This document shows, one piece after another, positions 9,022 to 27,246 of a stretch of DNA of 64,000 nt (position 1 is its first letter; every line of letters begins with the position of its first letter). The notes under the pieces were generated by a model, which saw only the letters and a program-made list of their open reading frames with translations, ran no database searches and was not told where the DNA came from. Origin of the DNA: Trichococcus pasteurii (GTDB lineage: Bacteria > Bacillota > Bacilli > Lactobacillales > Aerococcaceae); NCBI RefSeq assembly GCF_900112935.1, contig NZ_FONM01000011.1, positions 1-64,000 on the forward strand. The letters are read 5' to 3'. Position numbers and translations under genes: made by a program.

Positions 9022-9141
9022 AGTTGAATTCTGAAATGCAGGGGATTCCGCCTAAGCTGACATTACGTCACGGCCAAACTGCGGCCGTTCTCGTAATGTC
9101 CTCTTAGTGCTCATCCCCTCCCGCATTTCATCGTATCCTTT
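9022..9141 (-). repeat. Nested palindromic repeat, unit B
   Basis: Imperfect palindrome of about 120 bp between ychF and the DUF1129 gene. On the minus strand the outer stem is GAAATGC/GCATTTC plus GGGGA/TCCCC. Next come the conserved internal-loop strands TGAGCACTAAGAGGAC and GTCAGCTTAGGCGGA, then a variable inner stem GACATTACG/CGTAATGTC and an apical CGGCC/GGCCG hairpin. The flanks GGATACGATGA and CAGAATTCAACTA are shared with other units. Confidence 0.85.
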
Positions 9142-9260
9142 AGTTGAGTTCTGATTCGCAGATACCGCTCCCGTTTCACACCCAGCGTAGTGAACAAAAG
9201 AGGTTCACTTCGCTGGGTGCTCCAACGTCCGGGTATCTAAACGCGAATCATCACATCCTG
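9142..9260 (-). repeat. Nested palindromic repeat, unit C
   Basis: Second unit, directly adjoining unit B and reaching the ychF stop codon. On the minus strand the outer stem is GATTCGC/GCGAATC plus AGATACC/GGTATCT. Its internal-loop strands (CGTTGGAGCAC and GTGTGAAACGGGAG) differ from units A and B, although the layout is the same. The inner stem is CACCCAGCG/CGCTGGGTG extended by GTGAAC/GTTCAC. The flank GATGTGATGA is shared with unit A and CAGAACTCAACTA with unit B. Confidence 0.8.
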
Positions 9261-10361
9261 TTATACGTTGAATCGGAATTCCATTACGTCGCCGTCTTGG
9301 ACTACGTAGTCTTTTCCTTCAAGTCTGACTCTTCCTGCTTCTTTGGCGGCTTGCATGCTGCCGTAAGCCAACAGGTCAGCGTAGGAAACTGTTTCGGCAC
9401 GGATGAAGCCGCGTTCGAAGTCGGAATGGATAATGCCGGCTGTCTGTGGTGCTTTCATTCCCAGCTTGAATGTCCAGGCACGGACTTCTTTTTCGCCTGC
9501 CGTGAAGTATGTTCCCAAGCCGAGCAAAGTGTAGGCTTTACGGATCAGTTGATCCAGTCCGGATTCTTTGATACCGAGCTCCGCCAGGAACTCAGCTTTT
9601 TCTTCATCATCCAATTCCGCCACTTCTTCTTCGATACGGGCGCACACAGTAACGACCTCTGCGCCTTCTGTCGCCGCAAAATCACGGACAGCTTGAACCA
9701 TTTCATTGTCTCCGCCGGCTATTACGTCCTCTTCGGAGATGTTTGCGACATACAGAACAGGCTTTGTCGTCAAAAGGAACAGGCTTTTCACAAGCGGTTC
9801 TTCCTCGGGTGTGAACTCGATTGTGCGTGCGGATTTGCCTTCTTCAAGTGTCTTCTTGATCTTATCCAGGATCTCCAGTTCGCGGACAGCATCTTTGTCC
9901 TTTGTGCGGGCAATTTTGCTGATGCGTGTGTAGCGTTTCTCGATGGACTCCAAGTCCGCAAAAATCAGTTCCAAGTTGATGGTTTCGACATCATCCAACG
10001 GATCCACTTTACCGCTGACGTGTGTGATGTTATCGTCTTCGAAACAACGCACAACATGACAGATGGCATCCACTTGGCGGATGTTGGCCAAGAATTTGTT
10101 CCCTAGCCCCTCCCCTTTGCTGGCGCCTTTTACGATTCCGGCGATATCCGTGAATTCAAAAGTTGTCGGGACTGTTTTTTTGGGTTTCACCAATTCTGTT
10201 AATTTATTCAAACGTTCATCGGGAACTTCGACTACTCCGACATTTGGGTCGATCGTCGCGAATGGATAGTTTGCGGCTTCCACTCCCGCTTTGGTGATGG
10301 CGTTGAATAAAGTGGATTTACCGACGTTCGGTAATCCTACGATTCCTGCTGTTAATGACAT
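9261..10361 (-). CDS. ychF: Redox-regulated ATPase YchF (OLA1/Obg-like)
   Basis: Ribosome-associated P-loop ATPase of the Obg family with a role in stress responses. The N-terminal nucleotide-binding domain has G1 GLPNVGKST, G3 DIAGIVKGAS and the NISEED (NxxE) motif that replaces the GTPase NKxD and explains the ATP preference. A helical coiled-coil insertion (about 130-200) and a C-terminal TGS domain ending in VMEFRFNV complete it. 366 residues is the family length. The gene follows the DUF951 gene in the parAB cluster. Confidence 0.98.
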   Translation of the reverse strand: MSLTAGIVGLPNVGKSTLFNAITKAGVEAANYPFATIDPNVGVVEVPDERLNKLTELVKPKKTVPTTFEFTDIAGIVKGASKGEGLGNKFLANIRQVDAICHVVRCFEDDNITHVSGKVDPLDDVETINLELIFADLESIEKRYTRISKIARTKDKDAVRELEILDKIKKTLEEGKSARTIEFTPEEEPLVKSLFLLTTKPVLYVANISEEDVIAGGDNEMVQAVRDFAATEGAEVVTVCARIEEEVAELDDEEKAEFLAELGIKESGLDQLIRKAYTLLGLGTYFTAGEKEVRAWTFKLGMKAPQTAGIIHSDFERGFIRAETVSYADLLAYGSMQAAKEAGRVRLEGKDYVVQDGDVMEFRFNV

Positions 10362-10411
10362 TTCTTCACACTCTTTCCACTTATATTACTTATATTTGTT
10401 CATTAAAAGAC

Positions 10412-10630
10412 CTATTCGACAGTTTCTTCTGCCTTAGTCAGTACTTTTTTCATTTTCTTCTCGAATTCGCGGCGCGGCATCATGACCATCTGCCCGCATT
10501 TCAGGCATTTGATACGGATGTCCATACCCATTCGGATGATTTCCCATGAGTTGTTTTTGCAGGGATGCGGTTTTTTCATTTCCACCACATCATGCAATCC
10601 ATAATCTTGTTGTACCAAGGCTAGCTGCAC
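10412..10630 (-). CDS. DUF951 domain-containing protein
   Basis: Small basic protein of unknown function (72 residues). It has a zinc-ribbon-like arrangement, HPC near residue 22 and CLKCG near 42, and the family's DIRIKCLKCG core. It is usually found between parB and ychF in Lactobacillales, as here, with 25 bases to parB. An RNA- or nucleic-acid-binding role is often guessed, but nothing in the sequence proves it. Confidence 0.88.
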   Translation of the reverse strand: MQLALVQQDYGLHDVVEMKKPHPCKNNSWEIIRMGMDIRIKCLKCGQMVMMPRREFEKKMKKVLTKAEETVE

Positions 10631-10655
10631 CTCTTTCTGATGTCTTCGTCTCTTC

Positions 10656-11549
10656 TTAATCGTCCAGGGAAATTTGCAGGATATCCAAAATCCGGGTCAG
10701 GTCGGCTGGAGAAAGGTATTCGATTTCGATTTTGCCTTTTTCGCCCTTGCTGGATATCTGTACGGATGTCCCGAATTTGTCCATCAAACGTTCTTCGCTC
10801 TCTTTGATGTATACCGGTTTCGTTTCTTTTTTCTTCTTGTTTTTCTTTTTGGCGACATCACCTGGATTGTTCAGTTGTTGGACCAGTAATTCCAGATGTC
10901 GGACCGTGATGCCCTCTTCGGCAGCACGTTTCGCCAATTCGCTGATCAACGATTCATCGTTCAACCCCAAAAGCGTACGGGCTTGCCCCATGGAGATCAA
11001 TCCCTCTTGCAGCATCCGTTTGACGTCCTGCGGCAGATTCAGCAAGCGCAGGTGGTTGGCGATGTACGGACGGCTCTTGCCTAATCTTTGGGCTACATCC
11101 ACTTGCGTAAGATTCAGCTTGTTCATCAAGGTTTGATAGCCTTCCGCCTCTTCCAGCGGAGTCAGGTCTTCACGCTGCAAATTTTCCAAAATGGCGACTT
11201 CTATCATTGCCGTTTCGTCAAATTCACGGACGATTGCCGGGATTGTTGTTTTGCCGGCCAAACGGGACGCGCGGACGCGGCGTTCGCCTGCAATGATTTC
11301 ATAGCCTTTCACGCTGGATTGGCGCAGAATGACCGGCTGGATGACGCCGTTCAGCAGGATCGAGTCCGCCAATTCCCGCAAAGTCGAGTCGTCGAAGGTT
11401 TTCCGCGGCTGATAAGGGTTGGGGCGGATTTCGTCTAAAGGGATCTCCTGTACCTTTTCTGTTTTTTCATCGATCTTCTCGATATCTTCAAAGTTGCTGA
11501 AGAGCGCGTCGATGCCGCGTCCAAGCCCTTTGCTGTTTTTATTCGCCAT
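10656..11549 (-). CDS. parB: Chromosome partitioning protein ParB (Spo0J)
   Basis: CTP-dependent DNA clamp that loads at parS and spreads, organising the origin region. The N-terminal domain has the CTP-binding motif GERRVRAS, followed by the parS-recognition HTH (VDVAQRLGKSRPYIANHLRLL), a lysine-rich linker and a C-terminal dimerisation domain. 297 residues, close to B. subtilis Spo0J. It overlaps the end of parA by 11 bases. Several parS-like sites lie in this window, mostly right of the origin. Confidence 0.97.
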   Translation of the reverse strand: MANKNSKGLGRGIDALFSNFEDIEKIDEKTEKVQEIPLDEIRPNPYQPRKTFDDSTLRELADSILLNGVIQPVILRQSSVKGYEIIAGERRVRASRLAGKTTIPAIVREFDETAMIEVAILENLQREDLTPLEEAEGYQTLMNKLNLTQVDVAQRLGKSRPYIANHLRLLNLPQDVKRMLQEGLISMGQARTLLGLNDESLISELAKRAAEEGITVRHLELLVQQLNNPGDVAKKKNKKKKETKPVYIKESEERLMDKFGTSVQISSKGEKGKIEIEYLSPADLTRILDILQISLDD

Positions 11550-12303
11550 CTGCTAACACTTCCTTTGCCAACTCAAGATAAACTTCCGCTCCTTTTGAAC
11601 GGATATCATAGTCAACGATTGATTGTCCATAGCTTGGCGCTTCGGATAAACGGACATTTCGCGGAATGATTGTCTTGTATACTTTTTCTTTGAAATACTT
11701 TTTGACCTCATCAACGACTTCGAAGCCGAGGTTGGTCCGGGCATCCAGCATCGTCAATAATACCCCTTCCAATTTCAGGTCCTTATTGAAATGCTTCTGA
11801 ACCAAGCGGAAGGTGTTCAACAGTTGACTCAACCCTTCCAAGGCATAGTATTCGCACTGGACCGGAATCAAAACCGAATCACTGGCAGTGAAGGCATTGA
11901 TCGTCAAATGGCCCAAAGATGGCGGGCAGTCGATGAAAATGAAGTCGTATTCCTCACGCAAAGACTGCACTGCCTCATAAAGGCGCGCTTCCCGATGCGG
12001 CTGATTCGTCAATTCGATCTCGGCCCCTGCCAATTGGATGGTTGCAGGCACGACCCATAAATTTTCCCGCGAGGATTCTCTGATGACATTCTCGATGGGT
12101 TCTTGGTTCACTAATACATCATATATATCTTTTTCAACATCTGCTTTTGAAATGCCGAGTCCGCTGGTGGCGTTCCCTTGGGCATCACTATCTATCAATA
12201 AAACTTTTTTGCCTAAGTAGGCCAAAGAAGCTGCTAAATTGACGGTGGTCGTCGTTTTTCCGACGCCGCCTTTCTGATTTGCGACTGCAATAATCCGTGC
12301 CAT
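11539..12303 (-). CDS. parA: Chromosome partitioning ATPase ParA (Soj)
   Basis: Walker-type ATPase that works with ParB in origin segregation; in B. subtilis it also modulates DnaA. The deviant Walker A motif KGGVGKTTT is near the N-terminus, with the signature-lysine form, and the switch II region is FIDCPPSLG. 254 residues is typical. The start follows GGAGGAG. No noc gene lies between rsmG and parA, unlike in B. subtilis. Confidence 0.97.
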   Translation of the reverse strand: MARIIAVANQKGGVGKTTTTVNLAASLAYLGKKVLLIDSDAQGNATSGLGISKADVEKDIYDVLVNQEPIENVIRESSRENLWVVPATIQLAGAEIELTNQPHREARLYEAVQSLREEYDFIFIDCPPSLGHLTINAFTASDSVLIPVQCEYYALEGLSQLLNTFRLVQKHFNKDLKLEGVLLTMLDARTNLGFEVVDEVKKYFKEKVYKTIIPRNVRLSEAPSYGQSIVDYDIRSKGAEVYLELAKEVLADGE

Positions 12304-12618
12304 CTATTCTCCTCCACTTTCTGTCGTTCACTTGAAGCTGTTGTAGCGCTGTTCCACTTTTTTGCCTAAAAAAAGAGAAAAAACGATACCTGCGCCTTTT
12401 CTCCTACGCATTTCTTCAAAATGAATCATCATTTATCGCTCAGTATGTCTATTTATAAAAAAGGCTATAACTTTACCAGACTATTGTAACAAAAAAATTT
12501 GGAAAAATATAGGATAGATAAAACCGATGCCGTAAAATCGCTTTATGATTGCACCTTAAACCCAAAAAGCCCGGCCTGCCTGCAAAGAAGCAGACGGTCG
12601 GGCCGTTCCTTTTCCGAT
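12304..12618. other. parA-rsmG intergenic region
   Basis: About 315 bp. It contains the rsmG terminator at 12569-12604 and an AT-rich stretch around 12430-12520 where a parA promoter would be expected (minus-strand TACAAT near 12484). No ORF, parS or DnaA box was seen. Confidence 0.6.
12569..12604 (-). terminator. Terminator of rsmG
   Basis: GC-rich stem of about 15 bp with one or two mismatches (12569-12583 with 12590-12604) followed by T5 on the minus strand, just after rsmG. Confidence 0.85.
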
Positions 12619-13335
12619 TTACAATGGATTTTTGTTCGGTGTCCCGGCTTTTCTCGGGTAGGCCTTCGGTGTTTCTTTCGTTTTCTTGATCTTCACGATA
12701 TGGCGTTCGCCTGCATCATTCGGCAGTTCAAAAAAGATATCTTCTTCGAGTTTGCCGCCCAGAGTTGCGATGGCGCGCTCTGCATCGCGGAGCTCCTCTT
12801 CCGTGCTGGCCGCTTTCATCGCGACGAAAGTACCGCCCTTTTTGGCCAAAGGCAGACACAGTTCGCTCAGGACGCTCAAGCGCGCGACCGCACGCGCCGT
12901 CACCACATCGAATTGGGCGCGGAATTTCTTGTTCTGCCCAAAGGTTTCCGCACGATCATGGAAACAGGAAACCCCCGTCAAACCTAATTCGGCAACCAGA
13001 GTCTGCAGGAAGGTGATCCGTTTGTTCAGTGAGTCCACGATCGTCACCTTCAATTTCGGGAACGCAATCTTGAGGGGGATGCTCGGGAAACCGGCGCCGG
13101 CGCCGACATCGCAAAGCGTGACTTCTTCTTCAGTGAAATCCATGTGGAAGCCCAGCGAAATGGAGTCATAGAAATGCTTCAGATAGACTTCATCCGGCTC
13201 CGTGATGGCCGTCAGGTTGATTTTTTCGTTCCATTCGCGCAATAGGCGCAAATATGTGGCGTATTGTTCGAGTTGCGTTTCATTCAAAAGGATCCCTTTT
13301 TCGGCAAGGGCCTCGGCAAATTGTTCTGGATTCAT
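12619..13335 (-). CDS. rsmG: 16S rRNA (guanine-527-N7)-methyltransferase RsmG
   Basis: SAM-dependent enzyme that methylates N7 of G527 in 16S rRNA (GidB family). The SAM-binding motif is [17 protein letters not shown] at about 70, with the usual RAVARL and WVALKG-like (FVAMKA) blocks. 238 residues from the ATG at 13335, which has GAAAGGA seven bases upstream. The ATG at 13350 overlaps that site. As in many Firmicutes it lies next to parA, but mnmG is 7 kb away instead of adjacent. Confidence 0.96.
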
Positions 13336-13425
13336 AATGTTTCCTTTCATCGTTGGCTTCGTCTGTTTTTCTACATCTCTACTTTATCCTGAAAGAGCGG
13401 TCTGTACAAGGGCTAAATCAACTTT

Positions 13426-13459
13426 AAAGCCGCCATCCCGAATAAAGGACAGCGGCTTT
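13426..13459. terminator. Hairpin between rsmG and the HAD gene
   Basis: 8-bp stem AAAGCCGC/GCGGCTTT (13426-13433 with 13452-13459) with an 18-nt loop. The T-run is better on the plus strand, so termination of the minus-strand HAD transcript may be partial. Confidence 0.5.
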
Positions 13460-13469
13460 TTCAATCTAT

Positions 13470-14132
13470 TTAATCATCCAACAAACTTGCGATAATGATT
13501 TCCAGTTCAACGAAGGAGTTGGCGATACGATCGGGATTTTCCGCGCGCAAGGTTTGGGCGGAACTTCCTCCCCAGGTGATGCCGACTGTCTTTATGCCAG
13601 CCATTTTGCCCATCTGCATATCATAGATGGTGTCACCGATCATGACGGTTTCTTCTTTCGCCATCGGGATTTTCTCCCAGGCGGTGAAGATGCCTTCAGG
13701 ATTCGGTTTATGCTGGTTCATGTTATCCAATCCGATGACCACTTCCATCAGATCCAGCAGATCCACTGCAGCAAGGCTGCGCAACAAAGCTTTGGTTGCC
13801 TTGTTGGAAATCACGCCCAGACGGTGTCCGTTCCCTTTCAGTTCCATTAAGGACTCCCGCGATAAATCGTATGGTTCCAACAGCATATTTTCATATTTTT
13901 CGTATTTGTTCCAAAAAACTTCCATCAGCTTGTCCAGTTCGACCGGAGAGAGTGCGTACTGCTTCAGATAGCCGATAAACTTCACAAAATGGGGCTTCCC
14001 TCTATCCTCACGCAGTTGCTCAGGGGTTGGAACGGGATAGCCGAAATGTTCAAATGTATCCATTGTAGCCATTTCGCTAATTTTGCATGTTTCAGCCAAG
14101 GTACCGTCAAAATCGAATAATAGTAATCCCAT
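13470..14132 (-). CDS. HAD-superfamily phosphatase (phosphoglycolate phosphatase-like)
   Basis: Cytosolic HAD-IA hydrolase acting on a small phosphorylated metabolite. Motif I is FDFDGTLAET (nucleophile Asp near residue 7), motif II VISNKA, motif III Lys in HKPNPEG, and motif IV MIGDTIYDMQ. The helical cap sits between motifs I and II, as in phosphoglycolate phosphatase and PpaX. The only in-frame start with this N-terminus is the ATG at 14132, with GAAGGGA upstream. The substrate cannot be assigned from the sequence. Confidence 0.85.
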   Translation of the reverse strand: MGLLLFDFDGTLAETCKISEMATMDTFEHFGYPVPTPEQLREDRGKPHFVKFIGYLKQYALSPVELDKLMEVFWNKYEKYENMLLEPYDLSRESLMELKGNGHRLGVISNKATKALLRSLAAVDLLDLMEVVIGLDNMNQHKPNPEGIFTAWEKIPMAKEETVMIGDTIYDMQMGKMAGIKTVGITWGGSSAQTLRAENPDRIANSFVELEIIIASLLDD

Positions 14133-14482
14133 CTTCCATCTTCCCTTCGATCGCAAATATGAACCGGATGCGGACAACAGAGGTGTAACCTACTATTACG
14201 CAAGGACTCAAAATTCCGAATGTTCACTATAATCAAAATTATAGCAAACAAAAACGACAGAATAATGAGGTTTTATTTAGAATTTGGAAAGAATTCCCTA
14301 GTTTTCACCACCCCTAAACCACTCATTACCGAACGTTAGGAGATAGACTATTTATTAACGTACTGATTTTACCCATCCAACTTTTACACGTTGTGGTCTC
14401 CATCTTTGGACAGGGGCAATTGACGGAATATCAAAATTTGCGTATGCTTTTGAGTAAACCCAGAAAGAGAGTTGGAAGCGAA
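14133..14482. other. Divergent promoter region, HAD gene / GIY-YIG gene
   Basis: About 350 bp between divergent genes. The minus strand has an extended -10 (TGCTATAAT, -10 at 14238-14243) for the HAD gene. The plus strand has TTGACG (14420-14425), a 17-bp spacer and TATGCT (14443-14448) for the GIY-YIG gene. Nothing else was recognised. Confidence 0.6.
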
Positions 14483-14839
14483 ATGGCACAGAAAAAAGAA
14501 CTGCGGCGCCAATTTGAAGAGATGCCTATTGAAGCCGGCATCTACGAAGTACAGAATACGGAAAATCAAAAGATTTTCATCGGAAAAACCCCGAACCTGA
14601 AGACTTTGAATGGTATGAAACATATTTTGAATATGGGGGCGAACAACAATAAGGAGCTCCAAGCTGATTGGAACCACTTTGGGCAGGAAGCCTTCACCTT
14701 TACGATTTTGGAAGTACTGGCAAAGAACGACGACCCTTCTTTCAATGAGAAGAAGGCCTTGGAACAACTGGAGGAAAAATGGCTGAGCGACAAGCAACCT
14801 TTCGGAGAACGCGGCTACAACCGCAGAACCAAAGCCTAA
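14483..14839 (+). CDS. GIY-YIG domain protein
   Basis: 118-residue protein made of a single GIY-YIG fold: GIY at 19-21 and FIG (normally YIG) at 32-34, then a KELQADW segment and an ERGYN C-terminus. GIY-YIG domains are often endonucleases, but here the second Tyr is Phe. I also see no clear equivalent of the catalytic Arg in the following helix (KTLNGMKHILNM). Activity may be altered or lost. The start at 14483 follows GGAAG; the frame extends 90 bases upstream across its own promoter. It is the only plus-strand gene in the first 39 kb. Confidence 0.75.
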   Translation: MAQKKELRRQFEEMPIEAGIYEVQNTENQKIFIGKTPNLKTLNGMKHILNMGANNNKELQADWNHFGQEAFTFTILEVLAKNDDPSFNEKKALEQLEEKWLSDKQPFGERGYNRRTKA

Positions 14840-14876
14840 AAAAGAAAACAAGCGCAATTGCGCCTGTTTTCTTTTT
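14839..14876. terminator. Bidirectional terminator, GIY-YIG gene / thiD
   Basis: A strong inverted repeat between the convergent genes, with an A-rich left arm and a T-rich right arm, so it gives a hairpin with a T-run in both directions. Confidence 0.85.
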
Positions 14877-15658
14877 TAGTTGATGCGGTAAGCATGATTA
14901 AGCGGTCCGCTGCCTTTGCCCAAATCCATTCCGTCACGGAGTGCTCCGGTGATGTAGGCTTTGGCTTGGCGGATGCTCTCTTCCATTCCGTGACCTAAAG
15001 CCAAGTTGGCGGCTATGGCAGAGGAAAGTGTGCAGCCGGTGCCGTGCGTATTCGGATTTTCGATCCGCTCCGATTCGAACCAACTCGCTTTTCCATCCAT
15101 AAAGAGCAGATCGTCGGCGCTGTCCTTCAGATGGCCGCCCTTCAGAAGCACGCTGGTTCCCGCTGCTGAAGCGATACGGTCCGCTGCAGCCAGCATATCT
15201 GCCTTCGTCCCGATCTTGACTCCGCTCAGCACCTCTCCTTCCGGCACATTCGGAGTGATCACATCAGCCAACGGCAACAAGAGCATCCGCAAAGCCTGGC
15301 TGGCATCGTCCTGCATCAGGCTGCTGCCGCTTGTGGCCACCATGACCGGGTCCACGACGATATTCTCCGCTTTGTGTTCGATCAGTTTCTCCGCGATGAC
15401 TTTGATGATTGCGGCATTCGACACCATGCCGATCTTCACCGCATCCGGCCGGATATCCTTGAAGACGCAATCCAGTTGTTGCGCCACAAATTCAGGCGTC
15501 ACTTCCATGATCCCGACCACGCCTGTCGTGTTCTGTGCCGTCAGCGCCGTGATCACGCTCATCCCATAGACTTTATGCGCCATCATCGTCTTCAGGTCCG
15601 CTTGGATCCCCGCTCCGCCGCTGCTGTCCGAACCGGCGATCGTCAATACTGTTTTCAT
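14876..15658 (-). CDS. thiD: Hydroxymethylpyrimidine/phosphomethylpyrimidine kinase ThiD
   Basis: Ribokinase-family enzyme that phosphorylates HMP and HMP-P to HMP-PP for thiamin synthesis. The N-terminal substrate-binding motif is GSDSSGGAGIQADLK and the C-terminal anion hole/catalytic motif is NTHGTGCTLSSAIA. 260 residues from the ATG at 15658 (MKTVLTIAGSD); a longer reading to 15679 puts the start too near the AAAGG site. It is the last gene of the TPP-riboswitch operon and begins 9 bases after the HAD gene ends. Confidence 0.95.
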   Translation of the reverse strand: MKTVLTIAGSDSSGGAGIQADLKTMMAHKVYGMSVITALTAQNTTGVVGIMEVTPEFVAQQLDCVFKDIRPDAVKIGMVSNAAIIKVIAEKLIEHKAENIVVDPVMVATSGSSLMQDDASQALRMLLLPLADVITPNVPEGEVLSGVKIGTKADMLAAADRIASAAGTSVLLKGGHLKDSADDLLFMDGKASWFESERIENPNTHGTGCTLSSAIAANLALGHGMEESIRQAKAYITGALRDGMDLGKGSGPLNHAYRIN

Positions 15659-15666
15659 GTTTTTGC

Positions 15667-16308
15667 TCATCCTTTCCAATCCGAAAATGAATAGATATAC
15701 TGTTCCGTCAGTGCTTCGATGCGCTCCCTATCCTGTGCCGCCGTTTCGTCGTAGACGCCGACCACCCGGAAGCCGGCTGCCGTTGCCGTTTCGATGGCAT
15801 GCAGGGCATCCTCAAAGACGACAGTCTTCGTGAGGGGAGCCCCAAGATGCTCGAGCGCCCGCTGGTAAATGAGCGGATTATCTTTGCCAGCCCGTACTTC
15901 GCTGCTGGTCAGGACGGTACTGAAATATCTCCGGATATCTAAGCGCTCCAAGGCACTCTCGGCCAAATGCCTTTCGGTCGCCGTGGCGATGCACATCTTC
16001 ACATTCTGCTCCTGCAATGTCTGCAGATATTCCGCTGCACCGGCTTTAAGCGGGACTTCGTAGCGGTAAAGACCCGAAATCAGCGTCTCGATTTCCGTAA
16101 GGATCGTCGCTTCGGTTTCATGCAATCCGTATGCTGCACGAAAATGTTGTGCGGCCTGCGTGAGGCTCATCGTCTTCAAGGCATCCTGCAATCCAGGAGC
16201 TGGCTGAACCTTTTTCTGAAGCAAATAATTTTCTCCCAATCCTTGCCAAATCGGCATGGAATCCAACAGCGTCCCGTCCAGATCGAAGATGGCTGCTTCC
16301 AGTTTCAT
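15667..16308 (-). CDS. HAD-family phosphatase in the thiamin operon
   Basis: HAD-IA hydrolase of 213 residues: motif I FDLDGTLLDS with nucleophile Asp9, motif II ATATERH, motif III Lys in GKDNPLIYQ, and motif IV VVFEDALHAI. It resembles beta-phosphoglucomutase-like and phosphatase members. It sits between thiE and thiD, overlapping thiE by 4 bases (ATGA-type). Its place in the operon suggests a phosphatase step on a thiamin intermediate or damaged metabolite. That is inference; the sequence does not fix the substrate. Confidence 0.82.
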   Translation of the reverse strand: MKLEAAIFDLDGTLLDSMPIWQGLGENYLLQKKVQPAPGLQDALKTMSLTQAAQHFRAAYGLHETEATILTEIETLISGLYRYEVPLKAGAAEYLQTLQEQNVKMCIATATERHLAESALERLDIRRYFSTVLTSSEVRAGKDNPLIYQRALEHLGAPLTKTVVFEDALHAIETATAAGFRVVGVYDETAAQDRERIEALTEQYIYSFSDWKG

Positions 16309-16949
16309 GGCTGCACCATCGCTTCGGCTAACGGGCGCAGTTTCTTCACTGCCGCGGTTATGTCAGGCTGCGCAAAGATGGCGGATACGACGGCAACCCC
16401 ATCGATGCCGCTGCCCTTCAGATTGGGGATATTCCCTTCAGAGATGCCTCCGATCCCCACAACGGGTATGCTTACCGCCTGGCAAATCTGTTGCAGCGTC
16501 TCGATCGATAGCGTGTTGACATCCGGCTTCGTCGCTGTACCGTAGATGGCACCAACGCCCAGATAATCGGCCCCGTTCCGTTCCGCCGCCAGCGCTTCTT
16601 TGACGGAATGGGCAGAAACACCAAGGATTTTCCCCTCGCCGATCCGACTGCGGACATCTCCCGCCTGCATATCGCTCTGCCCCACGTGGACGCCATCCGC
16701 ATCCAGCGCCAAGGCCACATCGACCGCATCATTGATGATGAAAGGAACGCGGTGGCGTTTGGCCACGGCCTGCAGTTCCTTTCCCAAGGAGACAAAGGCA
16801 TCAAAATCCAGTTCTTTTTCGCGCAGTTGCACAACAGTAACGCCTGCTTGGATGGCTTCTTCGAGCTGTTCCGCCAAGGATGCGTTCCCCAGCCATTGCC
16901 GATCGGTCACTGCGTAAAGCAGCAAATCATTCTTATCTACTCTCAATTT
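16305..16949 (-). CDS. thiE: Thiamin-phosphate synthase ThiE
   Basis: TIM-barrel enzyme that joins HMP-PP and thiazole phosphate to make thiamin monophosphate. Visible motifs are VVQLREKE, FIINDAVDVALALDADGVHVGQSD and the C-terminal phosphate-binding VVGIGGIS. The start is a TTG at 16949 that overlaps the end of thiM by 17 bases, with a GGGGG site upstream inside thiM. The longer open frame (to 17033) has no family similarity in its extra residues. 214 residues is the usual length. Confidence 0.93.
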   Translation of the reverse strand, partial: KLRVDKNDLLLYAVTDRQWLGNASLAEQLEEAIQAGVTVVQLREKELDFDAFVSLGKELQAVAKRHRVPFIINDAVDVALALDADGVHVGQSDMQAGDVRSRIGEGKILGVSAHSVKEALAAERNGADYLGVGAIYGTATKPDVNTLSIETLQQICQAVSIPVVGIGGISEGNIPNLKGSGIDGVAVVSAIFAQPDITAAVKKLRPLAEAMVQP

Positions 16950-17757: not shown

Positions 17758-17798
17758 GGGGTACCTCCAAATAGTTTGTTTGATACGACGACAAAAAA

Positions 17799-17830: not shown

Positions 17831-17849
17831 GAATAGAATCATTCAATGT

Positions 17850-17936
17850 TATTTCCCTACGTTGGCATTATCCAAATCAGGTAATCGGTCGAAGTTGATT
17901 ACTTCCTCTCAGCCTGCTGACACAAGCTCCCTTTTT
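17850..17936 (-). promoter_or_regulatory. TPP riboswitch (THI box)
   Basis: The minus strand contains the conserved THI-box blocks in order: GGGAGCTTG, GGCTGAGAGG, GACCGATTACCTGAT, GGATAATGCCAACG and TAGGGAA. TPP binding is expected to favour the downstream terminator and shut off thiM-thiE-HAD-thiD. Confidence 0.96.
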
Positions 17937-18007
17937 TCGTATGTAATTGTGTAACTATCTTAACATAAGCGGCAGCCTTACTCAAGAATCATTTTTGCTG
18001 ACTCTTT

Positions 18008-19735: not shown

Positions 19736-20584
19736 TTATGCCTTGTTCTGATCCCGATAACGTTTCGGCGTCATCCCGTATTTGTTTTTGAAGGCTGCTG
19801 AAAAGGATTTTTGATTGGGAAAACCGCAAGCATCCACGATATAACGGATGTTTTTGTCGGTGAACATCAGCTGTTTCACGGCTTTATTGAGGCGTTGCTC
19901 GACAATATAGCTGTGGATGGTGCTGCCGGTTTCCTTTTTGAACAATCTGCACAAATGCGTATAGGAGAGGTGAAAAGTCTCCGCCAATTTATCGAGCGCC
20001 AACTCTTTGTCCAGATTTTCGTCGATGTGTTGCGTTACGGCGGAAATCAGCGGCAACGAGGCGCTGCCTATGTTCCTCTCTGCCTTCGGAACAGAAAAGT
20101 ATGCGTCCAGAAGGAAAAGGATCTGGTACAGCATCCCTTTCAGCAAAAGTCTGGCTTTTACGGCGCCGTCGCTTTCCATAACAGCGAAGTACCGGTCCAG
20201 CAAGCCACGCAATTCATCTAGTTTCTCTCTCTGCAGTTCCGTATAGGCAAGCCAATTAGTCAAACGGAAGCTCTTGTTGTCGTAATCCGGTATCTCGGAT
20301 TTGATGAAGGCATACGGGAAAATGAGCGAAATCGCCTTCGTTTTGTTATGATCATCCCAGATCGAATGGACTTCATTCGAATTGATGACGAGGATATCGC
20401 CGGCATTCGTTTCATGGACGGTCCCAGCAATCGTGAATTCGCTGATTTTTCCGGACATTGTATAGCTGATTTCCAATGATTTGTGCCAATGGGCAAGGAC
20501 GCCGGAATCCGTTCTTTCGTTGTGAAAAATATAGAACACTGGGAGTTCCGGATCCGATTCGATGATTTCATGATGATAACGCAT
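19736..20584 (-). CDS. AraC-family transcriptional regulator
   Basis: Cupin-type sensor domain (about 1-150; HWHKSLEISYTMSG matches the AraC-binding cupin) followed by a two-HTH AraC DNA-binding domain (about 185-282), with the second helix region ending in GFPNQKSFSAAFKNKYGMTPKRYR. The start at 20584 has AGGAGGG eight bases upstream; the upstream extension to 20620 lies over that site. It precedes the lipoprotein esterase gene by 180 bp on the same strand, so it may regulate it. The effector, perhaps a sugar, is unknown. Confidence 0.9.
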   Translation of the reverse strand: MRYHHEIIESDPELPVFYIFHNERTDSGVLAHWHKSLEISYTMSGKISEFTIAGTVHETNAGDILVINSNEVHSIWDDHNKTKAISLIFPYAFIKSEIPDYDNKSFRLTNWLAYTELQREKLDELRGLLDRYFAVMESDGAVKARLLLKGMLYQILFLLDAYFSVPKAERNIGSASLPLISAVTQHIDENLDKELALDKLAETFHLSYTHLCRLFKKETGSTIHSYIVEQRLNKAVKQLMFTDKNIRYIVDACGFPNQKSFSAAFKNKYGMTPKRYRDQNKA

Positions 20585-20669
20585 CTGCTGCCCTCCTATC
20601 CTTCCTTTTTCCATTTGCATTCCATTATACTACAATTCAATCTTCAAAAACGACGGAATGGGTGCATAG

Positions 20670-20705
20670 CTCCGGCGAAGAATCCGCTAGCCGGAGGAGA
20701 AAAGC
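20670..20705. repeat. Short CCGGAG-type hairpin
   Basis: CTCCGGC/GCCGGAG inverted repeat (7-bp stem) between the AraC gene and mnmG. Similar CCGGAG-centred hairpins recur upstream of rpsF (59730-59885). Confidence 0.4.
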
Positions 20706-20763
20706 GGGTCTCTCGACCATGAAGAGCAGTCGCGAAAAAAATTAACGGATAACGACAAAAAAC

Positions 20764-20790
20764 GAGGCTATCTCGAGAGGAGACAGCCCC
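20764..20790 (-). terminator. Terminator of mnmG
   Basis: 11-bp stem GGGGCTGTCTC/GAGATAGCCTC (one G-U and one mismatch-type pair) followed by GTTTTTTG on the minus strand, just after the mnmG stop. The gyrA terminator has nearly the same stem. Confidence 0.85.
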
Positions 20791-20796
20791 GGCTTC

Positions 20797-22692
20797 CTAT
20801 TCTGCTGTTTTTGCGATCTTTCCTTGGGTTACGTATACCATCAATACGGAAATGTCGGCTGGATTGACGCCGCTGATCCGGCTTGCTTGGGCGATCGTTT
20901 CCGGTTGGATCTTCTTCAGATTCTGTTTGGCTTCGTTCGCTATTCCGTTGATCGCATCGTAATCGATGTTCGCAGGGATGCGCTTTTCTTCCATCTTCTT
21001 CAGCTTATCCACTTTTTCGGCGGCTTTTTTGATGTAGCCGGCGTATTTGATCTGCACTTCCACTTGCTTGATGACCTCTTTCGGCAAGGCTACCTCAAGC
21101 GGTGCAAAAGCAATCAGACCTTCATATTTCAGTTCCGGACGCTTCAAAATATCCGCAAACAAAATGCCGTCCTTCAGCGGAGCTGAGTTTTGTTCCGCAA
21201 GGAAAGCCTGCAGCTCTTCAGTCGGTTTCAGGCGCGTACTTTCGAGGCGGGCGATTTCCTTTTCGACAGCCTGTTTTTTCTCCAGGAATGACTCATAGCG
21301 TTCTTCCGTCACCAAACCGATTTCGCGGCTCATTTCGGTCAAGCGGAAGTCGGCATTGTCATGGCGAAGCAACAGACGGTACTCGGCGCGGGAAGTCAGC
21401 AAGCGATATGGCTCCATCGTCCCTTTTGTGACCAAATCATCGATCATGACACCGATATAGCCATCGCTGCGTTTCAGGATGAAAGGTTCTTTTCCTTGCA
21501 CAGCCAACGCTGCATTGATACCGGCGATGATGCCTTGTCCGGCAGCTTCTTCATAACCGGATGTTCCGTTTGTTTGACCAGCTGTAAACAGATTCTTAAC
21601 CAATTTTGTCTCCAAGGAAAGGCGCAGCTGATGCGGTTTCACGACATCGTACTCGATGGCGTAACCTGTCCGCATCATTTGGGCATTTTCCATCCCCGGC
21701 ACGGAACGGATCAGATCAAGCTGAACATCTTCCGGCAATGAGGTGGACAACCCTTGCACATAGACTTCTTCGTTTTCGCGGCCTTCAGGCTCAAGGAAAA
21801 GCTGATGGCGCGGCTTGTCGCTGAAGCGGACGATTTTATCTTCGATCGATGGGCAATAACGCGCCCCAACGCCTTCCACGATACCCGTGAACATCGGTGC
21901 GCGGTGGAGATTGTCGCGGATGATCTCATGGCTTTCCGGACTCGTATAAGTCAGCCAGCAGGATAATTGATCCTTCAGATAGTCTTCATCTTTGGAAAGG
22001 AAGCTGAAATGATTCGGCTCAGCGTCACCGGGCTGTTCCTCAGTTTTGGAATAATCGATGGTCGAAGCCATCACACGCGGCGGCGTTCCGGTCTTGAAGC
22101 GCGCCAATTCAAATCCCAGATCAAGCAGATTTTCGGATAACTTGATGGACGGCTGCGAGTTGTTCGGTCCGGAAGAGTAAACCAAGTCCCCGATGATGAT
22201 TTTCCCTCGGGAAGAGGTTCCGGCTGTGATGACGACGGCCCCGGCGCGGTAAACAGCGCCCGTATGCGTCACTACGCCCTTGACTTCACCGTCTTCTACG
22301 ATCAATTCTTCAACGATGGCTTGCTTCAGCAACAAGTTTTCTTGTTTTTCGATGGTGTGCTTCATGTGGTGGGCATAATCATCTTTATCAGCTTGTGCGC
22401 GCAAAGCTTGGACTGCAGGGCCTTTCCCTGTGTTCAGCATGCGCATTTGGATATACGTTTTGTCAATATTGCGTCCCATTTCACCGCCCAATGCATCGAT
22501 TTCCCTTACGACTACACCTTTCGCAGGTCCGCCGATGGATGGATTGCAGGGCATAAAGGCAACCATGTTCAAATCAATCGTAACCAGCATCGTGCTGCAT
22601 CCCATACGCGCTGCGGCAAGCGCCGCTTCGGATCCGGCATGTCCGGCTCCTACAACAATCACATCAAAACTTCCAGCTTCAAATCTGTTCAT
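20797..22692 (-). CDS. mnmG: tRNA uridine-5-carboxymethylaminomethyl modification enzyme MnmG (GidA)
   Basis: FAD-dependent partner of MnmE; together they modify U34 of tRNAs reading two-codon families. The Rossmann motif [17 protein letters not shown] is at the N-terminus, with the family blocks [26 protein letters not shown] and [12 protein letters not shown] near the C-terminus. 631 residues is normal. It follows mnmE on the same strand, but a 276-bp repeat region with possible regulatory folding separates them. Confidence 0.98.
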
Positions 22693-22737
22693 TTTTCCAT
22701 TCCTTTCGTTTGTGCTATCTATTTGTTGTTATCATTT

Positions 22738-23013
22738 TAGTTGAACTATGAATCCTTTTAGAACGGTTCTGAATCCTTAACAGATGGTGCATCAGTAGTC
22801 TTGGTACTAAAAAGGCTAAAGACCTCAAACGTCGCACTGTGACGTTTGAGTGCCTAACGCTGTTCAGGCCCACTCAGCCAAAACCGGGCTGCTTGGTCCT
22901 GAACCTCGTTAGTGCTCAAACTCTGAGCTCAGGATTTGTCATGGCTCTTGCGATTTTAATCGCTTAGAGACATGGTACACTTGACCGGTACGGTCACAGT
23001 GCATCCGTATCCT
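22738..23013 (-). repeat. Composite nested palindromic repeat, unit E
   Basis: Fills most of the mnmE-mnmG gap, starting at the mnmE stop codon. On the minus strand the conserved core GAGCACTAACGAG pairs with GCGTTAGGCACTC around the stem GTTCAGG/CCTGAAC. The outer stem GTTTGAG/CTCAAAC competes with a second perfect 10-bp hairpin (CTCAAACGTC/GACGTTTGAG, 22824-22850). The 5' part carries AAGAGCCATGACAAATCCT, shared with unit D, and the 3' part has GGATTCAGAAC. It begins GGATACGGATG, like unit B. Confidence 0.8.
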
Positions 23014-24405
23014 TTATTTCCCCAGGCAGAACTGTGTAAATAGTTGGGTGAGGAGTTCGTCCTGGACGCTGTCGCCGGTGATTTCTCCGAGGAGGTCCCA
23101 GCAACGGGTGAAGTCGATCTGGACGAGGTCGATCGGCATGCCTGATTCGATGCCGCTCAGCACTTCATCCAGCGAATCCATCGCATCGTTCAAGAGCGCG
23201 ATATGGCGGACGTTGGATACATAGGTTGCATCCTTCTCGCCGGTTTCCCCTGAGAAGAACATTTTCGTAATCTGGTTTTCCAATTGGTCCAGTCCGGTTT
23301 CACTCAGCATCGATGTTTCGATGATTCTTTCAGAATCGCTCCAAGGTTCCAACTCACCGGTCGTCATCTTGGCTTCCAGATCCATTTTGTTCATAAGGAT
23401 GATGCGGTTCATGTCCTTCGTCTCTTCCAGAAGCTGCTTGTCCTCTTCCGTCAGCCCTTCGTTCTGGTTGATCAACAGAAGAATCAGATCCGCTTCGGCC
23501 AAGGCTTTCCGGCTGCGTTCGACTCCGATCTTTTCCACGACGTCATCCGTTTCGCGGATGCCCGCTGTGTCAATCAGCTTCAATGGAACGCCTCTGACGT
23601 TTACGTATTCCTCGATCGTATCGCGGGTTGTGCCGGCGATGTCCGTCACGATGGCTTTCTCTTCACGCAACAACCGGTTAAGCAGACTGGATTTGCCTAC
23701 GTTCGGGCGGCCGATGATGGCTGTCTGAAGACCTTCGCGCAGGATTTTCCCTTGCTTGGCGGTATCCAACAGATGCTGGATGTGTCCGCGCACTTCAATG
23801 GTGCGTTCTTTCAAGAGCTTTGTCGTCACTTCCTCGACGTCATCGTATTCCGGGTAGTCGATGTTCACTTCGACCTCAGCCAAGGTGTTCAGGATGATCT
23901 GACGGATATCCCGGATCATACCGGACAATTTGCCGTCCAACTGATTCAGAGCCACATTCATCGCACGATCGGTTTTGGCACGGATCAAGTCCATGACCGC
24001 TTCGGCCTGCGACAAATCGATCCGGCCGTTCAGGAAGGCGCGTTTCGTAAATTCCCCGGGTTCCGCCATGCGGGCGCCGTTCTGGAGAATCGTCTGCAGA
24101 ATCCGGTTGACGCTCACAACACCGCCGTGGCAGTTTATTTCCACGACATCTTCGCGGGTGAAAGTCTTCGGTCCGTGCATGACGGACACCATGACTTCAT
24201 CGATCATGTCGCCTGTGCGCGGATCATAAAGGTGGCCGTAATTGATGGTATGTGTGGCGACATCAGCCAAGTGCTTCGTCCCTGATCGGTATAAGGCATC
24301 GGCTATCTGGATCGCTTGATCTCCGCTCAAACGTACAATTCCGATGGCCCCTTCTCCAGGCGGCGTCGAAATGGCAGCGATGGTATCAAATTCATTTATA
24401 ATCAT
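23014..24405 (-). CDS. mnmE: tRNA modification GTPase MnmE (TrmE)
   Basis: GTPase that forms the MnmE-MnmG complex for wobble-uridine modification. The N-terminal tetrahydrofolate-binding domain (1-118) is followed by a helical domain with an inserted G domain: G1 [13 protein letters not shown]2/G3 DIAGTTRDT and [11 protein letters not shown]4 NKMD. The C-terminal CLGK carries the catalytic Cys. 463 residues is normal. In most relatives the upstream neighbour is jag; here jag lies 23 kb away. Confidence 0.98.
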
Positions 24406-24445
24406 TCATTGTCGTCCTTTCTTGGTTGTTTCAGCGTACAAAAAA

Positions 24446-24488
24446 AGCGCCCACTCCTCCCCTTCGTTCAAGCGGGAGGAAAAGCACT
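24446..24488 (-). terminator. Terminator of the oxidoreductase gene
   Basis: Imperfect hairpin with a CCTCCC/GGGAGG core stem and an AGTGC/GCGCT basal stem, followed by T7 on the minus strand, between the oxidoreductase gene and mnmE. Confidence 0.7.
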
Positions 24489-24650
24489 TTGACTGCAGTT
24501 CACTTTGGATATTTTGTTCAGCTTACTTTAAATAGATTTCTAGCCGATTATACAAGCAATGCGGGCGCAATGCAAGCTTTTGGCGGACGTTTTTTCATTT
24601 CATCCTCAAATACAAAGCTGAGTTCACCGATAGCGTGATGCTGTTGCGGA

Positions 24651-25640
24651 TCAGCCGATCTGCAGGGCGATTTTCCCTGTCTGTTCGGCACTTTCCAGCC
24701 GCTGGAATGCCTCCTTGAAATCCTCTGCCGGATAAACGGCGTCCACCACAGGATGGAGATCATGTTCCTCGACAAAACGGATCATCGCTTCATATTCTTC
24801 AAAACTGCCCATCGTCGAACCTTTCAGCGTGTACTGGCCGTAAAAGAATTTCCGCAGATCGAAGGTGACCAGATCGCCCGTCGATGAACCGAAAGTCACG
24901 ATTGTGCCGCCTCTGCGCACCGCATCCAGCGATTTGTCGAAAGTGGCTGCTCCGACCGACTCGATCACGACGTCCACTTTTCCGCCGATTCCTTCGATCC
25001 AATCCTCATCGTGCAGCAACCCTTTATCGGCTCCATGCTGCAGCGCCTTTGCCAATTTTTCTTGGGAACGGGAAGTGACGTATACCGTCGCTCCAGCGGC
25101 CTTGGCGAATTGCAGCAGATAAGTGGCTACTCCACCGCCGATGCCTGGAATCAGGACTTTCATACCTTCCGATGCTCCACCTTTTGTGAATAAGGCGCGA
25201 AAAGCCGTCAACGCGGACAGGGACAAAACGCCTGCTTCTTCCCAAGACAGATGGGCCGGTTTATGGACAGCATTCTCTTCGGAAACAACGATTTCCTCCG
25301 CCATCGCCCCCTGCTCCGAACTCCCGAGGATCGTGAAGGTTTCAGGGGCAGTGTCGCTGTTCTTGCGCCAACCGCTGCCGGGATAAATCATCACTTCATC
25401 ACCGATTTTGAAACGCGTCACTTCTGCTCCGACAGCCGCAACGATACCGGCAGCATCCGAGCCGATGACAACAGGGTGCTTCTCATGTGCTTGGCTCAAG
25501 GCAAAAAGGTCTCGATGGTTAAGTCCGGCCGCCTTGACCTTTATTTTTATCTCGGAAGATCCTACCGGTTGTTCCGCACGCTCTTCCCATTTCAAACCTT
25601 CCAAACCGACTTTTCCGCTGTGAATCAATGTTTTCACCAT
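24651..25640 (-). CDS. Zinc-binding-type alcohol dehydrogenase / quinone oxidoreductase (MDR family)
   Basis: Medium-chain dehydrogenase/reductase of about 329 residues. The N-terminal GroES-like domain (SEIKIKVKAAGLNHRDLFAL) lacks the catalytic Cys/His zinc ligands. The Rossmann domain has GIGGGVATYLLQFAKAAG and prefers NADP(H) in this family. These are usually quinone/enone reductases; the substrate is unknown. The ATG at 25640 has GAGGAG eight bases upstream; a GTG three codons earlier is also open. Confidence 0.85.
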   Translation of the reverse strand: MVKTLIHSGKVGLEGLKWEERAEQPVGSSEIKIKVKAAGLNHRDLFALSQAHEKHPVVIGSDAAGIVAAVGAEVTRFKIGDEVMIYPGSGWRKNSDTAPETFTILGSSEQGAMAEEIVVSEENAVHKPAHLSWEEAGVLSLSALTAFRALFTKGGASEGMKVLIPGIGGGVATYLLQFAKAAGATVYVTSRSQEKLAKALQHGADKGLLHDEDWIEGIGGKVDVVIESVGAATFDKSLDAVRRGGTIVTFGSSTGDLVTFDLRKFFYGQYTLKGSTMGSFEEYEAMIRFVEEHDLHPVVDAVYPAEDFKEAFQRLESAEQTGKIALQIG

Positions 25641-25737
25641 ATCGATCACTCCTCAAATGGATAGTTCTGTCAGATTCAGTATAACTTTTCAGGGCAGAAA
25701 TACAAAGAGGGAGAACCGAAGCCTCCCCCTCACCTTG

Positions 25738-27012
25738 CTATTTTTCTGTAAAACGGATCGCTTTTGCTCCGATGTCGGAACGATAGAACGTATGCGCGAT
25801 CGGATTTGCACTCAAGTAACGGTAAGCTTTGTCTTGCGCAGCTTGGAGCGTTTCGCCTTGGCCAGCGACCAGCAGGATGCGACCGCCGTTTGACAATAGT
25901 CCTTGTTCGCCAGACTTCACACCTGCTGCATAGACGATGCAATCCGCATTTTCCGTATCCAGATCAGGCAACGGGATGTCTTTCATTGGCGCTTCCGGAT
26001 AGCCTTCAGCGGCAACAACAACACCTAAAGTGTAACGATCGGTATACATTTCGATGACCGGATCTTTTCCGTTCAGGATGTCATCGATGACTTGCGCCAA
26101 GTCGGAAGCCATCTGGTTCATGATGACCTGTGTTTCCGGATCGCCGAAACGGGCATTGAATTCGATGACGCGCAACCCTTTGGCGGTGATCATCAAGCCG
26201 GCATACACAACTCCCTTGAATGGGATGCCCTCAGCCACCATCGCCTCTACAGTCGGTTTTACGACCGTATCCAGCACTTCTTGAATCATAGCTTCGGATA
26301 CTTGCGGTACTGGGGAATATGCACCCATGCCGCCCGTATTAGGTCCTTTGTCGCCATCATAGGCGCGTTTGTGGTCTTGTGCGACGCCTGAATAGTAATA
26401 CTTCGCACCATTCGCCAGCGCGAACAACGAGAATTCTTCCCCTTCAAGGTACTCTTCAATGACGACTTTCGGCTTGCCGGCTGCATATTTGCCTTGCAGG
26501 AGCATGTCGTTCAGCGCATCCAGAGCCTCGGTCATCGTCATTGCGACAACGACGCCTTTTCCGGCTGCCAGACCGTCCGCCTTGATGACAATCGGAACAC
26601 CATTGGCTTCCACGTAAGCAACCGCTGCTTCATAGTCCTCGAATGTCTCGTAGGCTGCAGTCGGGATGCCGTATTTTTTCATCAGGTCTTTTGCGAACTG
26701 CTTGGAGCATTCCAGGTCAGCCGCTTTTTTGCTGGGTCCGAAGACTTTCAGGCCAGCCGCTTCAAATACATCCGTTACCCCTTCAAACAAAGGGATTTCC
26801 GGTCCGACGAAAGTCCAAGCGATGTTGTTGTCTTTGACGAATTGAACCAATCCTTGATGGTCGTTTTCCGCAATGTCGACTAACGTGATGCCGTCCTGGG
26901 CCATCCCTGGGTTGCCTTTGGCGCAGTAAACAGTCTCCACCAACGGGCTTTGAGTTAATTTTTTAGCGATGGCATGTTCGCGTCCGCCACTGCCGATTAC
27001 AAGAAGTTTCAT
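25738..27012 (-). CDS. purD: Phosphoribosylamine-glycine ligase (GAR synthetase)
   Basis: Second step of de novo IMP synthesis: ATP-dependent joining of glycine to phosphoribosylamine. ATP-grasp enzyme with N-terminal VIGSGGREHAIAKKL, the family's KADGLAAGKGV nucleotide loop and EFNARFGDPETQ. 424 residues. Last gene of the purC-purD transcription unit. It is separated from purH by 231 bp holding two palindromic repeat units. Confidence 0.98.
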   Translation of the reverse strand: MKLLVIGSGGREHAIAKKLTQSPLVETVYCAKGNPGMAQDGITLVDIAENDHQGLVQFVKDNNIAWTFVGPEIPLFEGVTDVFEAAGLKVFGPSKKAADLECSKQFAKDLMKKYGIPTAAYETFEDYEAAVAYVEANGVPIVIKADGLAAGKGVVVAMTMTEALDALNDMLLQGKYAAGKPKVVIEEYLEGEEFSLFALANGAKYYYSGVAQDHKRAYDGDKGPNTGGMGAYSPVPQVSEAMIQEVLDTVVKPTVEAMVAEGIPFKGVVYAGLMITAKGLRVIEFNARFGDPETQVIMNQMASDLAQVIDDILNGKDPVIEMYTDRYTLGVVVAAEGYPEAPMKDIPLPDLDTENADCIVYAAGVKSGEQGLLSNGGRILLVAGQGETLQAAQDKAYRYLSANPIAHTFYRSDIGAKAIRFTEK

Positions 27013-27072
27013 CTTTGAGATCCTCCAACCTTTTATATGAAGCTTGATATTGCTGAACTGGTGCTTTTTTAA

Positions 27073-27120
27073 ACGAGTTCTGAATCCTAGAGTTTGAGCG
27101 TAGGATTTGTCATGGCTCTT
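27073..27120 (-). repeat. Short palindromic repeat, unit D
   Basis: Minimal member of the repeat family. The minus-strand flank AAGAGCCATGACAAATCCT leads into a hairpin AATCCTA/TAGGATT with loop CGCTCAAACTC, then the shared 3' flank CAGAACTCG. It lacks the nested core of units A, B and E. Confidence 0.7.
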
Positions 27121-27246
27121 AATCGAGTTCTGAAATCCAGACCCCTCCGCCTAAGTTGACAAACGCACACGGACAAAAAGCGTCCGCTTTGCGTTTGTCC
27201 TCTTAGTGCTCAGGGTCTAAACGGATTTCATCACATCTTGTTTTTA
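27121..27246 (-). repeat. Nested palindromic repeat, unit A
   Basis: Directly follows the purH stop codon on the minus strand. The flank GATGTGATGA is followed by the outer stem GAAATCC/GGATTTC plus AGACC/GGTCT, the conserved internal-loop strands TGAGCACTAAGAGGAC and GTCAACTTAGGCGGAG, the inner stem GACAAACGCA/TGCGTTTGTC, and an apical CGGAC/GTCCG hairpin. The 3' flank is CAGAACTCGATT. It is the clearest copy in the window. Confidence 0.88.

Follow-up and report, generated by a model that had tools for sequence, protein, structure and literature searches.

Modular folded repeat units behind stop codons in Trichococcus pasteurii and their distribution in the Lactobacillales

Three gaps between genes in a 64,000-nucleotide (nt) stretch of the Trichococcus pasteurii genome (assembly GCF_900112935.1, contig NZ_FONM01000011.1, positions 1 to 64,000; hereafter the window) contain arrays of a modular, folded repeat, here called the unit. 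As read from open reading frames and Pfam matches, the gaps lie between ychF and a DUF1129 gene, between mnmE and mnmG, and between purH and purD. The PurD protein shows 99% identity to that of Trichococcus alkaliphilus, in keeping with a Trichococcus host. The arrays comprise three full units, one composite unit and remnants. Every unit is on the minus strand, as are the flanking genes, and each array begins no more than about 5 nt from the stop codon of its upstream gene (ychF, mnmE or purH), in sense orientation (Table 1). Two covariance models of the unit, R1 and R2, found no further unit in the window at an expect value (E) <= 1. Genomes and loci are referred to by our own numbers (G and L).

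Units of the window, their fold and their covariation

An earlier note on this DNA had described a dispersed family of nested palindromic repeats at these three loci, and the sequences and stems lie where it placed them, as judged from the sequence and from the R1 and R2 matches. Its unit A corresponds to 27115-27241, its unit B to 9016-9141 and the core of its unit E to 22840-22931, and the complementary pairs that it listed for them are present (GACAAACGCA/TGCGTTTGTC, GACATTACG/CGTAATGTC and GTTCAGG/CCTGAAC, respectively). The flanks that it described as shared do occur, but are more variable than it stated and partly pair with each other (for example GCGTGATGA with TCAGAACGC in other copies).

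BLAST against the T. pasteurii genome gave 18 matches, 14 with E < 0.005, and parsing of the paired ends revealed a single frame with exchangeable insides, RYGA-TGAnnnnn-G(3-5)AGA-nnnn ... nnnn-TCT-nnnnnTCA-GARY. The inside is GAGCACTAAGAG[stem]AGCTTAGGCGGA in type 1 and CGGACGTTGGAG[stem]GTGAAACGGGAGCG in type 2, while in type 3 the 3' arm is swapped for a module with hairpin CTCAAACGTCACAGTGCGACGTTTGAG. Units occur singly or head-to-tail, measure about 120-130 nt and have four helices forming one long interrupted hairpin. The outer helix is followed by stem 1, which has eight pairs and ends in an asymmetric bulge (GCGTTTAG-type), then by stem 2 and a short stem 3, and finally by an internal loop of purines (GGAG facing GTGAA, or the type 1 loop pair) and a long apical stem. 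Compared with shuffles, the three full units fold with z scores of -7.4 to -8.9 on both strands (-7.9 for 9140-9265, -8.2 for 9015-9145 and -8.6 for 27115-27240), and the composite unit with -5.9 and -6.0.

The type 2 unit behind ychF is framed like type 1 and differs in its inner loop; R1 found it with E 1.5e-10 in the whole-genome search. In the composite unit behind mnmE, the 3' side of the core runs into the type 3 hairpin (22824-22850) and then into a variable tail. This type 3 module is also found in gaps of G001, G002, G006, G008 and G009 and at L003, L005 and L013 of the T. pasteurii genome, and its combination with module 4 recurs in the purH-purD gaps of G002 and G006. A repeat search of the window matched 27095-27120, at the purH array, with 22924-22949, at the mnmE array.

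Table 1. Units, remnants and upstream genes at the three arrays of the window
Feature	Position	Strand	Remarks
Full unit, type 1	9016..9141	minus	Inner loop GAGCACTAAGAG ... AGCTTAGGCGGA; R1 E 1.3e-35; second of tandem pair
Full unit, type 2	9136..9261	minus	Match begins at final base of ychF stop codon; R2 E 4.8e-19
ychF	9261..10361	minus	Pfam YchF-GTPase_C; 9 kb array behind its stop codon
Decayed remnant	22738..22763	minus	GGATTCATAGTTCAACTA; by eye
Composite unit, type 3	22764..22936	minus	GAGCACTAACGAG core; R1 core 22840-22931, E 3.4e-5; ends approximate
Module 4	22937..23013	minus	GGATGCACTGTGACC ... CATGTCTC/GAGCCATGACA; abuts mnmE stop codon; inner boundary approximate
mnmE (trmE)	23014..24405	minus	Pfam MnmE_helical, TrmE_N; 22.7 kb array behind its stop codon
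Decayed remnant of further unit	27073..27114	minus	AGAGCCATGACAAATCC ... TAGGATTCAGAACTCGTTTA; by eye
Full unit, type 1	27115..27241	minus	About 5 nt past purH stop codon; R1 E 4.1e-38
purH	27244..28785	minus	Pfam AICARFT_IMPCHas; 27 kb array behind its stop codon

A separate observation is that the type 3 hairpin has a loop, CACAGTGC, complementary to GCACTGTG (22996-23003) at the start of module 4 of that array. This complementary pair is found again at purH-purD in G002 and G006, and type 3 without module 4 also exists (G008 and G009, behind ychF). A loop-loop or long-range pairing between the type 3 loop and module 4 is possible.

R1 was built from ten type 1 units. Since its outer helix lies one column off, type 1 covariation was counted on a corrected structure, in which 97.6% of cells are paired and 22 of the 39 pairs have changed on both sides, a number reached by none of 500 shuffles; the count of further pair types was reached by 14 of 500. 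The description of fixed loops between changing yet complementary stems in a dispersed family is thus supported. R2 was built from 19 units of six genomes (G006, G018, G019, G020, G051 and G064). A further alignment, A4, consists of 19 units and excludes type 2, because type 2 units misfit the register of alignment A3. In A4, 85.5% of cells are paired, compared with 59.5% in shuffles and 34.8-45.5% in slid registers, and both sides have changed in 30 of 36 pairs (shuffle mean 23.8, with 1 of 500 shuffles reaching 30). The sequences are related, and covariation counts alone do not separate selection from copying of one arm templated by the other.

Comparison with Rfam release 15 gave no match above gathering score on any unit, in the window or in 43 loci, and nothing up to E 5 for window positions 8980-9270. 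Four Rfam matches in the 43 loci adjoin units and none lies on a unit.

Distribution across genomes and placement at stop codons

In the T. pasteurii genome, R1 found 27 matches at E <= 0.01, and in each of 13 Trichococcus genomes 8-45, the lowest count (8) belonging to a genome that is 51% complete. Scans of more than 40 genomes scored 8 or 45 candidates per genome, so that the counts from these large scans are lower bounds. At the family level, R1 matched at least 19 of 76 genomes, in 5 of 21 genera, and the units of the other genera have equal length and frame with other letters. Across the order, R2 matched at least 119 of 395 genomes, which belong to 38 of 80 genera and to seven unnamed families; there were 116 matches in G218, 72 in G171, 57 in G159 and 51 in G306. 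In a sample of the class at least 15 of 398 genomes matched, 11 of them outside the order, the weakest of which (G647 and G710) may be chance matches. In a sample of the phylum, the only match among the candidates scored in 398 genomes was the T. pasteurii genome itself, and this sample doubles as a specificity control. Among named carriers are Enterococcus faecium plasmids (14 records, two places in each) and Aerococcus tenax. This family of folds of about 120 nt is thus widespread in the order and sparse in the rest of the class. No description of it was found in the open-access literature searched, which does not show that none exists.

Both this spread through the order and the placement at stop codons go beyond the earlier note. 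Placement was examined in a set of 100 arrays, which covers eight genomes and three single loci, with a mirror test as control. The 5' end of the array lies at most 40 nt behind a same-strand stop codon in 51 of the 100 arrays, mostly at -1 to +5 nt, compared with 2 in the mirror. The distances peak again at 113-125 nt, as would be expected if one unit had gone undetected in the interval. By genome, such stop-adjacent arrays number 11/20 in G019, 10/20 in G218, 13/21 in G012, 6/8 in G201, 4/8 in G064, 3/10 in G159, 2/9 in G356, 0/1 in G363 and 2/3 in the others. Outside the order, 8 of 16 arrays are stop-adjacent with 1 in the mirror; two of these follow what is apparently one gene in two genomes. 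When family f9 is set aside, 68 of 81 arrays share the strand of their upstream gene, with 38 arrays in convergent gaps and none in divergent gaps, and in an earlier, partly overlapping set 71 of 83 elements were sense with the upstream gene. The units are therefore often found at stop codons, on the sense strand, in most of the groups examined.

At four loci (L351, L363, L336 and L268) the upstream open frame appears to end at or within the unit (distance -8 or -6), and the unit may supply the stop codon there.

Placement as a truncation artefact, in which a unit lands in a gene and supplies its stop codon, was rejected because the ends of ychF, mnmE and purH are constant whatever unit follows. 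Gene-specific regulation was rejected as well: among 112 upstream proteins, matches between genera occur only among five with ABC-type (ATP-binding cassette) ATPase motifs, one pair being 56% identical (Pfam was run on that pair) and the others 27-34%.

Predicted stability also distinguishes the strands. The sense strand is more stable than the antisense strand in 97 of 99 distinct units of alignment A5 and in 86 of 92 units of alignment A2, which includes four matches (L136, L142, L146 and L149) on the strand opposite to a stronger match. Moreover, G-U exceeds A-C inside the helices (47:20 and 41:15 cells). These results favour the sense strand as the folded strand.

Turnover between species and the search for a mover

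The ychF, mnmE and purH sites are each readable in 10 of 11 further Trichococcus genomes, and in all readable cases a unit or remnant stands behind the gene, the units differing in type, number (up to five, in G003) and completeness. The mnmG-noc gap is readable in the window and seven genomes. In the window, G002 and G009 the stretch from stop codon to terminator is free of units; G001 and G004 carry one unit there, G007 a decayed unit, and G003 and G010 other DNA. Orthologous gaps thus differ between species in content as well as in presence or absence, a comparison that the earlier note had proposed. Upstream genes are shared between 10 of 17 loci of the T. pasteurii genome and one or other of 20 loci of G012, and G159 and G356, of one genus, have one upstream gene in common (99% identity). 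Members of a genus have sites in common, different genera hardly any, and the content of the sites varies from species to species.

G201 carries eight near-identical copies. Among 55 distinct type 1 units, stems 1 and 2 are mostly inherited together and the core hairpin is exchanged, stem 1 TGAATCCC being combined with 12 core types. The unit ends, ...TAGGGTG/CCCGACTA, form a weak inverted repeat.

Two candidate movers were searched for and rejected. An IS200/REP-type transposase (Y1, PF01797; REP, repetitive extragenic palindromic sequence) occurs in 9 of 15 carriers and is absent from G018, G019, G020, G171, G201 and G218, so it is no general partner; the carriers without it include those with 116, 72, 42 and 41 matches. 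No unit was found near 29 Y1 loci searched (of 30; flanks of about 1.5 kb each), where matches reached no better than E 0.77 and 0.93. A reverse transcriptase (PF00078) occurs in 9 of 14 carriers and is absent from G018, G159, G306, G356 and G515.

Two further features of the window lie away from the units. A perfect 56-nt palindrome at 61785-61840 has the centre TGTTCCACGTGGAACA, which we take to resemble a parS site, and the last 3.7 kb (60386-63992) contain five matches with at most two mismatches, where 0.01 are expected. A thiamine pyrophosphate (TPP) riboswitch lies at 17837-17943 on the minus strand, with 52.8 bits; it was missed by the default Rfam scan because its score is just below the gathering score of 54.3.

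Explanations and relation to known repeats

The earlier note left undecided whether the repeat is a mobile element, a structured RNA or a protein-binding site. The evidence points to a spreading element that is selected as a folded sense-strand RNA. We therefore lean towards a modular, non-coding, spreading repeat of the 3' untranslated region (3'-UTR) that would act as folded RNA, REP-like in working but of its own kind. Since the units often start at stop codons in sense orientation, they are expected at the 3' end of the coding segment in the mRNA, and we infer that the unit is transcribed, acts there as RNA and spreads as a non-autonomous element. It is copied within genomes, lies singly or head-to-tail, and once folded could form an RNase-resistant or RNase III-processed 3' barrier on the message. 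The terminating ribosome would open the base of the folded unit, and the unit would thereby alter the stability or the termination efficiency of the message of the upstream gene, as REP hairpins near stop codons do. The constant loops are the probable sites of the recombination by which core hairpins would be swapped from frame to frame.

Several results weigh against this RNA reading. The 19 arrays of family f9 (G159 and G356) show no orientation bias, with 8 on the same strand, 11 on the opposite strand and four in divergent gaps, and only 5 of them lie within 40 nt of a stop. As the fold is shared, placement rules would then differ between lineages. The Aerococcus tenax copy is antisense to both annotated neighbours, and an E. 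faecium copy (one record) lies about 400 nt past the annotated stop, with an apparent further unit before it. As to the sampling, the arrays were drawn from the better-scoring matches (20 regions each for G218, G012 and G019, which have 116, 45 and 42 matches), genes were called as simple open frames, and the 100 arrays do not include three matches (at a locus edge, in L306 and on the opposite strand in L344), none of which follows a stop. No copying enzyme was found in the searches for Y1 and reverse transcriptase, other transposases not being searched, and no clean target duplication is seen at the occupied/empty pair of G004 and the window at mnmG-noc, where none is readable because of a second partial unit. 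The excess of G-U over A-C is modest, falling to 30:10 and 19:11 in distinct contexts and to 20:19 cells in A4 alone, so that part of the complementarity may stem from copying of one arm from the other. The excess in well-kept RNAs is larger than here, which may reflect weak selection on the RNA or a recent origin of the copies.

The alternative that survives best is a purely selfish element resembling a miniature inverted-repeat transposable element (MITE), moved by a transposase in trans and without RNA function, which we regard as possible but somewhat unlikely. Its placement would result from a target such as TA/TAA together with the elimination of copies that landed in genes. Such an element suits the dispersed and tandem arrangement of copies, the species-specific sets, the polymorphism of sites from species to species and the near-identical copies of G201, and likewise the missing orientation bias of f9. 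Furthermore, many units end in GACTA with the next unit a few nt on, as after the TAA or TAG of a gene. However, a DNA element blind to strand would be expected neither to fold worse in antisense in nearly every unit nor to avoid divergent gaps outside f9, and about half of the arrays stand at the stop codon itself and are not spread over the gap. The Y1 results, six carriers lacking the enzyme and no unit near the loci searched, also speak against it.

In a bolder form of the RNA reading, the 3'-UTR RNA element is mobile, expands by itself and has stop codons as its targets. It would be placed in sense through an mRNA- or termination-coupled mechanism, and not by a known transposase or reverse transcriptase, and would then act on terminating ribosomes and on the 3' end of the message. 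We consider this distinctly unlikely.

A transcription terminator or attenuator module, belonging to the 3' end signal of the gene, appears very improbable. A terminator-like hairpin does follow within 150 nt downstream in 31 of the 100 arrays, compared with 4 in the mirror. In the loci shown of G201, G064, G122 and G173 unit and terminator recur together, with a classic intrinsic terminator about 20-30 nt past the unit, and the repeated block of G201 stops at the T run of the terminator. Nevertheless, the units of the window stand in operon-like gaps (mnmE-mnmG and purH-purD) and have no T run at their own end, and 32 of the 100 arrays are sense between co-directional genes. Hardly credible is a cruciform or protein-binding site acting at the DNA level (for example for a nucleoid or recombination protein), its arms kept complementary by arm-templated repair: the stems hold little wobble (3091 Watson-Crick, 118 G-U and 71 A-C cells in A5) and single-stranded DNA of either strand also folds, but this leaves the strand asymmetry of stability and the gene orientation unaccounted for.

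At L263-L282, in G201, G064, G122 and G173, the unit opens with a strand (GTGGGACAAAA or GTGGGAAAAAA type) that by eye resembles the opening strand of the terminator behind it and seems, again by eye, to covary with it between genomes. This strand of the unit could then also pair with the second strand of the terminator, which would make a possible switch.

Under the favoured reading of a spreading, folded 3'-UTR RNA, REP sequences offer the closest parallel. REP is a short single hairpin of 20-40 nt with a GTAG foot, and REP-associated enzymes belong to the Y1 transposase family. By comparison, the units described here measure about 120 nt with several conserved internal loops, GTAG is not constant at their 5' end, they are gene-oriented outside f9, and part of their carriers lack Y1. 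They resemble REP in being extragenic and in lying, in about half of the arrays, close behind stop codons. Passages of PMC12306157 describe REP and BIME (bacterial interspersed mosaic elements) of enterobacteria as many-copy extragenic palindromic repeats in operons and at 3' ends, and report that REP at most 15 nt behind a stop codon stall ribosomes (260/496 in one study and 446/4,072 in another). REP is thus the nearest working model, although the units differ from it in size and part of their carriers lack the enzyme.

Among pneumococcal repeats, passages of PMC3049150 present BOX, RUP and SPRITE as folded repeats, over-represented in convergent gaps and with about half of the sites common to all strains; BOX has a variable number of inner modules, and its distances to genes follow the general intergenic distribution. 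BOX carries boxA and boxC ends with boxB repeats inside, whereas here whole units stand head-to-tail and often start at a stop codon. R2 was also run on 64 of 80 named purD-region loci, many of them streptococcal, and matched only L019; these loci need not contain BOX.

EFAR is a structured repeat of Enterococcus. According to passages of PMC2267715, Efa-1 of Enterococcus faecalis measures 163 nt, has 65 members and forms two adjacent stem-loops. Set beside the units by description only, EFAR and Efa-1 are alike in being intergenic structured repeats of a lactic acid bacterium. EFAR could be a member of this family, and units do occur in Enterococcus, on the E. faecium plasmids. For the Correia (NEMIS) elements of Neisseria we know of no placement at stop codons. 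Passages of PMC3049150 describe these as scattered folded repeats, transcribed and possibly cleaved by RNase III, and as bounded, unlike the units, by 26 bp inverted repeats.

Rfam release 15 has no entry for this large family of structured repeats, which occurs in lactic acid bacteria and in some further Bacilli. The fixed distance of the units to the stop codon leads to a clear, testable claim about a folded RNA behind the terminating ribosome. Moreover, the many near-identical copies, together with natural empty sites in relatives, provide a ready system for studying the spread of small non-coding repeats that have no visible mover.

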